64,000 nt of DNA from Volvox africanus (lineage: Eukaryota; Chlorophyta; Chlorophyceae; Chlamydomonadales; Volvocaceae), in NCBI GenBank assembly GCA_030268105.1, contig BSDZ01000112.1, positions 372,001 through 436,000 on the forward strand, read 5' to 3'. The translations under genes and the position numbers were made by a program. Every line of letters starts with the position of its first letter. Position 1 is the first letter of the stretch. Shown one piece after another: positions 32,067 to 38,200 of the stretch. The notes below the pieces were generated by a model. It did no database searches. It saw nothing but the letters and a program-made list of their open reading frames with translations, and was not told the origin of the DNA.

Positions 32067-33928
32067 CATACTCTATACATATATATATATATGTATTAGC
32101 ATCCGGGACGGACCGCGTCTTTTTGGACATCTATCTTCAAATTAGGCTTGTAACAGAGATACAACGAACATAATAGCATTTATAGCTTGGTCGCAAAAAC
32201 ATTAGTGCAGCAGGCTAACGTACACAAATCCTTACAAGGTATATCGCAATCAAGCAATCGACATAAAGCAAGTACTTGCATATCTAGATGATAACTTCGT
32301 TATGCCACATCTATCTTGATGCTAGCAACGGTACTTTTGAGGCTTAACGGCTTCTTGTACGTTTTCCTATAACCCTGGCTTCCAAATGACTGACCCTAAA
32401 TGAACAACAGTGGAAAAAGCGGCTAGGGAAGGGTCTGCTGCTGCACTGCTGCTATCTAGCTGCAGACCTGGGGAGCTCCCTGCCACAGACCGGAAAGACA
32501 CCAGGACGGAGTTTGCTTGCTTCCTCCGTCCCTGGGCGCCCAGTACCCAGGTAAGGCGAAGGTTGCATGTGATTAACATTGCGTTGTTTATTGTCGAAGA
32601 GGCCCAGAGCTTTAGTTGCGCCATTGCCGGCTATCTAGCGTGTGCTGTCTTCCTACCTTTCAGCGCGTGGCCTTGTGACTACCAAGCGGCTGTAGCGACC
32701 TGTGGCCTTCCAGCACCCCACTCAAACAGACACAATGACGTACGGGACTGTTTCCGTCTCGTTAATGCTGCGAATTATATATTTGGTGGGAAATGATAAA
32801 TAATTATCGTGCTTGCTAGGTACCCACTGCATGCTGCGTTTCACGTTATCTTCCTCGGAGAGAGGCGGATCTGTTGTCGCTCATTGATGACTCATGAAGA
32901 ATTCATGATAGACGGATAGAGCTGCCGTTCACCTGCATCAGATGGGAATATGGGAATAGGTTGCGTCCATTCGCTTTCATCAACATTGGTATTGCTTTTG
33001 GTCCTGTTCCAAGGTCACATGAAACAAAACTGCAGAAAAACGTTAGGAAGCTGGGAATGCGGCATGCTTTATCTCTTAAGTTTTCTCAGGGGACTGTTCA
33101 TGAAAGAGCCAAAAACAGCTGATTTAGTTACATCCTTGTCTAAATTTTAGATTCGGAACTTTTTTATTATAGATGGGAAATAAGATCATCAAAAGATAAA
33201 GTTATCCGCAACATCAGCGGCGAATACTTGTGTAGTGCCTGTTATCGGCACAAATATATATTGATATAGTAAATAGCAATTATATCTTAATTTCTAAGGA
33301 TGCATGGCCTCCTTTATAAAAGAGATTGAGCTGATATCCGCACGTACTGTTGTCTTGCAAAGCATAATTCGCTATCGTTCTGTGACGAGCGAATGGCACT
33401 TCGCATGCATTCCTAAGCGCAACTTTGTAGCGCTTCATGCATTTTGATAAAACACATATTATATATCGGAAATTGAACTTAGGTCCATATGAAACGCATG
33501 ATTGCGAGCATATTGGCATTATTGTACTATCAGAGCGACATAGGCCGTCGGTCGCGATATGCATGATACGCGCTAATAATTATTATTTAACAAAGTAAAA
33601 TTACCGGCATAGCGTATTTGCATACTATACCGCGCATGAGCTCCCGGTTGTCGCTGGCAAGCTTGTGTAATGGCGTGAGTAACGTAACTCACTATGCATG
33701 AATCTTTGCCCGCGCATAGATTACACTGTTGCAATCAATAAGACGCATTGCACTGATGGAATGAAGGCTTTTATATGACGATTCCTGCTGTAGATCAGAA
33801 TGGTACGTCCTATTAGACGAGATACGTCAAATCTCCTATTATTATGTAATTAAGTTATTTATCACAAATTGCCAAAGTCTGACAACTCAGTTTCGCTCTT
33901 TCTGGCGCTTCTGCGCCGTTCACGCTGT

Positions 33929-35852: not shown

Positions 35853-37115
35853 ATGTGCTGGGGTGAATCATACCCTTCGTCAGCAAGCCTGTCACCTGGC
35901 ACTTCACCTCGTCAAACTCCAGTGGACTGAGCCTGTACATGGGTCGTGAAACAGGTTGTGCTCCAGGCACAAGTGGTATGGTATGATCCACAGGACGCAT
36001 AGGTGGAAGCCCAGGTACGTCATGAAAAACGTCTGCGTACCCTTGCAACAAGGCTGCGACCTCAGGATCCACAGAGGTTTAAGTGGTTGTTGCATTCAAA
36101 TGCAACCAAGGCCTCACAAGCAGTCCATGGGCGCCCTCTCGAATCTTCGAATCCTTGCGCCCCGCTGGCTTAGGTTCAGCTTGCTTGCCCATCGCGGCCC
36201 ACAGTGAAGTTAACCATGTCGAGGTGAGCCCCATATTGCCATAATGTTGAAGACCCCAGTATATATGTGGCAGCGTACATGAGCTCTTGCAACACATAAG
36301 GTCGGGTCACAACACGCAGAGGACCTATTCCAAGGTAAAGGGCGGCCACATCCACACTGTTAAATAGCACGGTGCCCGATTCGAATCACGAGATACACTG
36401 CATACCCGCCAGCAAAGCTGCAGCTTTACGGCAGCTATAGGCAGGTAGAAGGATGCATGCAGCAGTATCTGGACGTTGACACCTACACCTCGTATAAAAG
36501 GTCAGCTGCACTGACAGCTCGTGAAGAGATTAGGGGACGAACAAAACAGTGTGGTCTAATAAATCGAGAGACGACAGAGGGCAACACCCTGCAAACAAAT
36601 TACACAGCGGACCAAAACCCAAACGTCCAGTGCAACCATCAAGCGACATTCAATCTTCAGTCACATGTTCGATTTGTTCAAGGACCGAAGGCAACAGTGC
36701 CCTCACGAATGGCCACACTGACGACCACTCCTCACGCGCTTGTTCTGCGTTCCCAGGCGGATTCCCCCTCCAAACCAACCTGGGCAGTCCCCTACTATGG
36801 CTGCGGAGCCAAAGGCGGTTACAATGGGCAATCCCTCGTTGGATGGTCCAACGCACATCTCAGGCAGACCTTTTCTTTACTCCAACACGCAAGCTCGGAT
36901 TGCATGCATACCCATTTTGTCAGCCATGTGTCATTGTTCAGCATCCGCTTTGCATCCGGGACGACATCGTGCAAAGCCGCTGCAGTCGGCGGACCTCCCT
37001 TCCTCTTGCCTCCCACCGGACCCAAGCTCGGACCTGCACACGACCGTCGATGCAGCCGTAGGGAACCTACTGCCGGTTTCTCAATCAACAGCCTCAGTGT
37101 CACAAGCCGGATCAA
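35853..37115 (-). pseudogene. Gypsy gag-pol fragment
   Basis: On the minus strand from 37115: gag C-terminus with a CCHC knuckle (VCLRCALDHPTRDCPL, near 36830), a decayed middle with several stops, then LGIGPLRVVTRPYVLQ, a linker, PPMRPVDHTIPLVPGAQP, YRLSPLEFDEVKCQV and GMIHPST, where the Copia LTR cuts in at 35852. Same family as the copies at 9626-15955. Confidence 0.8.
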
Positions 37116-37119
37116 TATA

Positions 37120-37190
37120 CAATATACAATATATATAGTATGAACATTATATATATGTATAGTATACTATATATATATATATATACATAA
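37120..37190. repeat. AT microsatellite left of pheT fragment
   Basis: Tandem ATATAC/TATA units directly abut the bacterial fragment; a similar TA run (37514-37532) lies on its other side. Confidence 0.9.
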
Positions 37191-37191
37191 G

Positions 37192-37510
37192 CATGCAGCG
37201 GTTGGCCGAAAGAATATCCTATATAATTTGTAACATCAACTATAGCGGAAATAGACCCCACCCCAATATTTTCAAGATGCTCTCTTAACCATTTCGGGCT
37301 TTCTATATTTTGAAGATTTTTAAGTTCGTAAATTGCAAATAGTGGGCAGGCTTCCTGATTTAAAATATGAACTCCAGCATTTGAGGAAAAACTTCCTTTG
37401 CTTTCTGGAATTTCCAACTTCTTTAAAAACGCCTACCCCAGCAGCAGCCAAGTCTCGTGCGATACCGTAAACTCCAAGGCTATCAGCTCTATTTGGCGTT
37501 ACATTAATAT
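37192..37510 (-). pseudogene. pheT: Bacterial phenylalanyl-tRNA synthetase beta subunit (pheT) fragment
   Basis: The minus strand encodes [20 protein letters not shown], a frameshift near 37430 (VGVF to LKKLEIPES), then [33 protein letters not shown] and IVDVTNYIGYSFGQPLHAY. These are the order and spacing of the segment of bacterial PheT running into the B3/B4 domain, about residues 155-270. PheT forms the alpha2-beta2 synthetase in bacteria; the known organellar PheRS is a single chain without this region, so an organellar origin is unlikely. The fragment is AT-rich, truncated at both ends and frameshifted, hence non-functional. The residue choices (EACPLF, YSFGQP) are of Rickettsiales type. 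Transfer from an endosymbiont is inference; assembly contamination is unlikely because retroelement DNA lies nearby on both sides. Confidence 0.85.
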
Positions 37511-37514
37511 GGAT

Positions 37515-38200
37515 ATAGTATATATATATATAGTTTGAGCATTTATTTCCTGAAACAAGACCCTGGAAGCAAGGTTGCGTTCGCGTTATGTTTTTATTAT
37601 TATTCGTTTATTTCACAGGCGGCACAAATATTCGATGGAAATATATCGTATATCACATGGTGTGAGACGTGTAATTAGCGAGAGTGAGATGCACTTTAGT
37701 ATATCTGTACTATGCAGTACTATTTGCACTGGCCGGTACCTCGACGCCTGCCATTGGCAGAAACCCGCTATCTCACAGTTCAGCCGTCTACTCGAAATAT
37801 CCTGAAAACCGTTCGACATGATACGGCCCCGTGCTGCTGAACTCGCTCGCTCATCCGACTCCTGCCTGACTCGTGAGATGATAACTCCATATCCCCCAAT
37901 GGCCCCAATCCATACACACAAGCATCACCCCCTCGATTTCCCCGTGCCTCCCTGCCACGCACACCTCCGTGTCCCTGACTTCAACACTGGGCTCAATTGA
38001 TATCGTCCCTGGACCGCCAACTAGAGTGCGTGGATTCAGTGCCTGATTTTGTGTTTTCTGAAATTTGTGACCAACACTACTGTAGTAGTCGTACAGTGCG
38101 ACACGCATACACCGACGAACATAAAGATAAGGTGCTAGTACGCTCGTACATATTCAGTACCTCCAGAGGCCTTATGTTGTTGTATCTCTGTCATATATAT
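37515..38200. other. No gene seen
   Basis: Short frames only, no motif. Confidence 0.5.

Follow-up and report, generated by a model that had tools for sequence, protein, structure and literature searches.

The closest described case is a nuclear region of about 9 kb in Volvox carteri, which contains pieces of the 16S, murB, ddlB, and ftsQ genes (Kawafune et al. 2015, PMC4324946) and was cited as partial inserts in the 2022 Megaira genome paper (PMC9098888). The host genus and the bacterial group are the same as in the present study, the pieces are truncated and mostly incomplete, and host repeats have been inserted. In addition, the 16S piece lies directly beside murB, from which it is apart in the bacterium, so that the locus resembles a small mosaic (PMC4324946). 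Complex nuclear insertions of organelle DNA (numts, nupts, and numins) likewise join several fragments in one insertion and carry signs of end joining, but their source is an organelle, whereas that of the Volvox shards is a bacterial endosymbiont (PMC6215612). On the scale of a genome, nearly 1 Mb of Wolbachia-like sequence (contig N50 of about 10 kb) was reported from Dictyocaulus viviparus as disabled, mostly short Rickettsiales fragments that were read as traces of a past symbiosis; however, the host is an animal, and that report is not known to describe 100-bp pieces shuffled end to end (PMC4046930). For V. africanus, the assembly of strain 1101-NZ-11 (141.0 Mbp, 129 contigs) was built from long and short reads, and contigs were removed according to their share of bacterial matches (PMC10291315). 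The string "rickettsi" is absent from the main text of that paper, and our literature search, with most subscription journals outside its scope, found no report of such DNA in V. africanus or of bacterial mosaics built in this way.

The whole stretch of V. africanus DNA analysed here, referred to as the window, has a length of 64,000 nucleotides. A protein encoded in it matched VaNZ11_007950 of V. africanus (98% over half its length), and the strain is very probably 1101-NZ-11. On its minus strand at 37186–37514, two adjoining pieces of PheT, the bacterial beta chain of phenylalanyl-tRNA synthetase (PheRS), were found in two reading frames. This shard is of Megaira origin. Its DNA was 96% identical (315/329, E 7e-152, one 1-base gap) to positions 1233383–1233710 of MegNEIS296, the 'Ca. 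Megaira' endosymbiont of Mesostigma viride, and 90% identical to a lake bin, whereas the other five relatives found showed 66–76% identity over the whole stretch or a part of it. The longer PheT frame matched Pfam B3_4 with 53.3 bits (cut-off 29.3) as well as the PheRS beta chain of eight distinct solved sequences; the shorter piece (31 amino acids) gave no Pfam match. When a prokaryote genome collection was scanned with the longer frame, seven loci were obtained, and the best two were those of the Megaira endosymbiont of M. viride (91% protein identity) and the lake bin (86%). A protein search with the 82-amino-acid PheT piece, in which the comparison was limited to similar lengths, returned only two partial or weak relatives. 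In a tree of eight rows, the shard grouped with MegNEIS296 and the lake bin (93/95; no fork starred, and the row L007 cut at guessed coordinates).

Both cut ends of the shard fall inside the gene, and alignment to three bacterial relatives revealed an extra T within a T run at 37425–37431 (minus strand) that shifts the frame. With these two cut ends and the frameshift, the shard does not have the intact open frame of a functional transferred gene, and a whole PheT cannot be made from it. The 13 differences from MegNEIS296 were distributed 3/5/5 over the codon positions, as expected, within such small numbers, for a sequence that would be free of selection. A three-way comparison of the shard, MegNEIS296, and the lake bin assigned eight private substitutions to the shard and five to MegNEIS296. 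Six of the eight in the shard were changes from A/T to G/C, and this bias was slight across all eight polarised shards (33 versus 28). The initial annotation had placed a bacterial PheT fragment at this locus, attributed it to 'Ca. Megaira', and described it as a truncated and decaying insert that does not work. The fragment was confirmed by the two frames, the Pfam and PheRS matches, and the DNA match to Megaira pheT, the source by the gap between the Megaira identities and those of the other five relatives, and the state of decay by the frameshift and the cut ends. A best match to an algal PheRS, which that annotation had named as evidence to the contrary, did not occur in the collections searched, none of which was a full eukaryote genome set. 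Its edges (37192–37510) were at the right locus, but each was 4–6 bases short.

The shard is bordered by TA-rich host stretches, at 37114–37185 on the left (TA/AT dinucleotide content 0.71 over the final 60 bases versus a window median of 0.12) and at 37515–37535 on the right (0.31 over 60 bases). Outside these stretches, two different multicopy host repeat families were found on the plus strand, each of them recurring in numerous copies on other contigs (40 of 515 candidates scored): that of the left flank at 36700–37113, which begins at or before the query start and whose matches stop at query position 414, and that of the right flank at 37627–37856. The bacterial DNA is thus flanked by host repeats on both sides within a nuclear contig of 1.74 Mb, and the locus is a simple, single-fragment insertion. 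When the MegNEIS296 chromosome was compared with the window at E 1e-3, two low-complexity matches and two shards were obtained, and the reversed chromosome gave no match at the same threshold. The second shard, at 32988–33341 on the plus strand, runs from the last part of the L4 gene into the first part of L23 (MegNEIS296 833171–832799, 79.5% identical, gapped). A phage search gave no match. The AT repeats at both edges and the location in an algal nucleus, as originally proposed, were therefore corroborated by the TA repeats in the sequence and by the host repeat families of the flanks, respectively. The proposal of an insert was right as to donor, nuclear site, and dead state but incomplete, since the insert is not isolated: the second shard and the genome-wide load described below had gone unmentioned.

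Long TA repeats at shard edges were seen in two loci (37114–37185 of the window and L012:2154–2195). A TA content of at least 0.6 was found in 2 of 14 edge intervals of 60 bases versus 0.3% of the tiles of the window, which is only suggestive of an enrichment of TA repeats at insertion edges; such repeats are perhaps break-prone sites.

Subsequently, stretches of the Megaira chromosome were compared with the V. africanus genome (140,993,249 bases in 126 contigs). The 8.2-kb stretch around pheT matched 24 places, with 31% of its length covered, and a second and a third stretch of 10 kb each matched 27 and 16 places, respectively. These three fully scored stretches (28,243 bp, 2% of the Megaira chromosome) together gave 67 matches spread over 30 contigs, with 27% of the query covered at least once. 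A 20-kb stretch gave at least 42 matches (40 of 81 candidates scored) and a further 10-kb stretch at least 44 (40 of 105 candidates scored), 18 of which lay in a tandem array in either case. Scaled to the 1,448,425 bp of the chromosome, the three stretches correspond to about 3,400 shards, 0.46 Mb, and 0.33% of the genome; the figure for shards is a projection from 2% of the chromosome, and single stretches range from 1.6 to 2.9 matches per kb. The extrapolation predicts 1.6 shards per 64 kb, and the window has two. The pheT shard is hence probably one of two to four thousand Megaira shards in the nucleus. A control with 10 kb of E. coli gave no match in the V. africanus genome; its base composition differs from that of Megaira, and an empty result shows little where no known match is included. 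With 8.2 kb of another Rickettsiales bin (L004), 30 places were matched, of which 18 were in one tandem array. At all six non-array places common to L004 and the 8.2-kb Megaira stretch, the identity to L004 was lower, so that, as with the pheT shard, their DNA is closer to Megaira than to other Rickettsiales. Four places (C25:433250, C11:4057920, C16:2766808, and C16:2780406) matched L004:1865–2125 at 81–86% and were not among the places hit by the 8.2-kb Megaira stretch.

Seven further loci of 3.1–3.4 kb each were read; these were the best-scoring loci of the 8.2-kb search and not a random sample. Two of them held a single shard, whereas the other five were mosaics of 8, 8, 9, 10, and 15 pieces, in which several non-adjacent donor fragments from all over the Megaira chromosome were joined in both orientations. 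The 54 pieces from the seven loci and the window's two shards had a median length of 102 bp (29–872) and a median identity of 90% (77–100). With sensitive settings, the window and the seven loci gave 77 matches to the real Megaira chromosome and five to the reversed one, of which three were in a low-complexity stretch and two were weak (E 0.002 and 0.007; 39 and 41 bits). Two of the weakest mosaic pieces (40 and 44 bits) were no stronger than these weak control matches. The low-complexity stretch at 22.6–23.0 kb of the window, a candidate shard, was matched by the reversed chromosome too and was dropped from the shard counts. Some stretches between mosaic pieces had no match to the Megaira chromosome, the search target excluding the Megaira plasmid. 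A 58-bp piece (L012:1180–1237) was identical to the 3' end region of the Megaira 16S rRNA.

Neighbouring shards overlapped or lay within 20 bp of each other in 32 of 45 pairs. These 32 joins were compared with 350 joins obtained by simulating blunt ligation of mutated Megaira pieces, and the two profiles were broadly alike. Fillers of 6–20 bp occurred in 19% of the real joins versus 3% of the simulated ones, and overlaps of at least 7 bp in 12.5% (n = 32) versus 6%; no clear excess of microhomology was seen in the 32 joins against the simulation. Such a picture is what end joining of loose fragments would leave, although it is not proof of that route.

We consider it very likely that the pheT shard is a dead nuclear fragment of an endosymbiont, namely the 'Ca. 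Megaira' of Volvox ancestors, whose DNA would have been fragmented and then inserted at nuclear breaks through end joining, as in complex numts and numins. The bacterium would have lived in the ancestors of this Volvox, and DNA from dying symbionts would have entered the nucleus, cut into pieces measuring tens to hundreds of bases. Loose pieces may then have been ligated together, or straight into nuclear double-strand breaks, via non-homologous end joining. The outcome would be single shards, such as pheT in its TA repeat, as well as mosaics in which as many as about 15 shards are scrambled; later, the shards would have decayed, one would have gained a host repeat element, and some pieces would have become part of a tandem array. 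The pheT shard is possibly the simple form of such an insertion at a break-prone TA repeat. We infer the absence of the symbiont today and likewise the number and dates of the transfer episodes. As to a wider proposal, there is about an even chance that the symbiont was pulverised and religated in bulk, giving thousands of shards that represent perhaps at least a quarter of the Megaira chromosome, possibly in several episodes and with some shards amplified into tandem arrays. Two main rivals, a later dispersal of larger insertions and an artefact, fit the data less well.

A host element is located inside one shard. At the locus L014, a stretch of 382 bp (L014:2311–2692) with GATTG at both edges and inverted ends separates two Megaira pieces that form one uninterrupted sequence in the bacterium. 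Of 292 candidates for this element in the genome, 40 were scored, one of them the L014 copy; it has at least 39 further copies, and 35 of the 40 were full length. Given these edges, ends, and copies, the element seems to have jumped into the L014 shard after integration. Furthermore, the contigs C36 (about 69–330 kb) and C69 (about 4–39 kb), which may overlap in part, contain tandem arrays with Megaira pieces at 18 regularly spaced places, most neighbours being 7.58 kb or about 11.1–11.7 kb apart. The array units carry at least two non-adjacent Megaira-like pieces, from a copper chaperone region and a DUF2659/BamB-like region. Ribosomal DNA is an unlikely identity for this array, since the 7.58-kb units leave at most about 3.6 kb besides the Megaira pieces, too little for an rRNA unit, and the 14 matches listed for 5.8S rRNA (39 of 2,921 candidates scored) were all on contigs other than C36 and C69. 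The 5.8S rRNA-like matches over the cut-off were scattered single places with varied scores on 10 contigs.

These features are relevant to the first rival, in which a few large Megaira insertions were later broken and spread by host duplication, recombination, and transposition. The position of shards among repeats, their recurrence in a tandem array, and the splitting of the L014 shard by a host element would all agree with such a history. However, the mosaics connect widely separated parts of the Megaira chromosome, in either orientation, with hardly any sequence in between, and the matches of the 8.2-kb search hit different parts of the query more often than the same part (31% covered). Moreover, the stretches searched revealed no large block collinear with Megaira. 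We therefore give late dispersal a small chance.

The divergence of the shards was examined by codon position. Within the open frames of MegNEIS296, the 54 pieces showed 163, 105, and 417 differences at codon positions 1, 2, and 3, respectively (rates 0.066, 0.042, and 0.168), and two Megaira genomes compared over 8.2 kb showed rates of 0.057, 0.036, and 0.194. Because the two sets of rates are close, most of the shard divergence was probably inherited from a donor Megaira whose distance from MegNEIS296 would have been similar to that of the lake bin. Decay after insertion would amount to roughly 1–2% per site, as estimated from a simple mixture of both codon patterns. The gaps in 45 coding pieces comprised 14 of one base, one of two bases, and one each of 19 and 20 bases; the 14 one-base gaps are only weak evidence of decay, because the Megaira–Megaira comparison over 8.2 kb, intergenic sequence included, also had 10. 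Two overlapping pairs of pieces had four and three common states absent from MegNEIS296 and mutual differences of 7/101 and 11/86, which suggests related but non-identical donors or separate decay.

The second rival is an artefact of library preparation or assembly, in which Megaira living in the culture contributed DNA that was joined with algal contigs or with other DNA of its own. Living Megaira can indeed occur in volvocine strains (PMC4324946), but the V. africanus contigs rest on long as well as short reads (PMC10291315). Chimeric reads would also not be expected to give 8–15 pieces of about 100 bp with identities of 77–100% within one locus, a shard interrupted by a multicopy host element, a pheT shard that has a frameshift and an even spread of differences, or Megaira pieces that recur in array units. 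A chimeric assembly is unlikely on account of the matches on 30 contigs, the host element within one shard, and the decayed sequence, and we regard an artefact of either kind as very improbable.

DNA capture by Helitron- and MULE-like transposons is known from plants. That such host transposons captured and carried the Megaira DNA would agree with this precedent and with the position of the pheT shard between repeat copies, but no element ends enclosing shards were seen at the loci read, and the sole element recognised lies inside a shard, so that this explanation has only the slightest chance. That the pheT shard is a working or domesticated gene part is scarcely credible, as its one open frame of 106 codons is set against two cut ends, a frameshift, and differences spread evenly over the codon positions.

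Compared with V. carteri, where one region of about 9 kb with pieces of four genes was described (PMC4324946), V. africanus shows 67 matches for 2% of the Megaira chromosome, and a single mosaic can hold as many as 15 pieces. The near-complete ddlB of the V. carteri locus was not found in V. africanus, in which only matches of 123 bp and 46 bp to a ddl-like open reading frame (named by motif only) were obtained. The kind of insertion is already known; relative to the literature searched, the scale, the host, and the mosaic build are new.

Most work on endosymbiotic gene transfer has dealt with organelles of very long residence. Megaira, a living bacterial genus and no organelle, seems to have contributed a large amount of DNA to the nucleus of an alga, and the mosaics suggest that it arrived as ligated debris and not as whole genes. 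The shards form a fossil record of infections by Megaira, whose presence in this lineage is intermittent, and such nuclear copies can mislead PCR for rickettsiae in Volvox. With this finding, the question of whether the transfer rate is set by break repair in volvocine algae also becomes accessible to testing. If the proposed history is true, DNA would flow to the nucleus from a transient symbiont as it does from organelles, and Volvox would be a natural laboratory for studying how endosymbiotic gene transfer begins.
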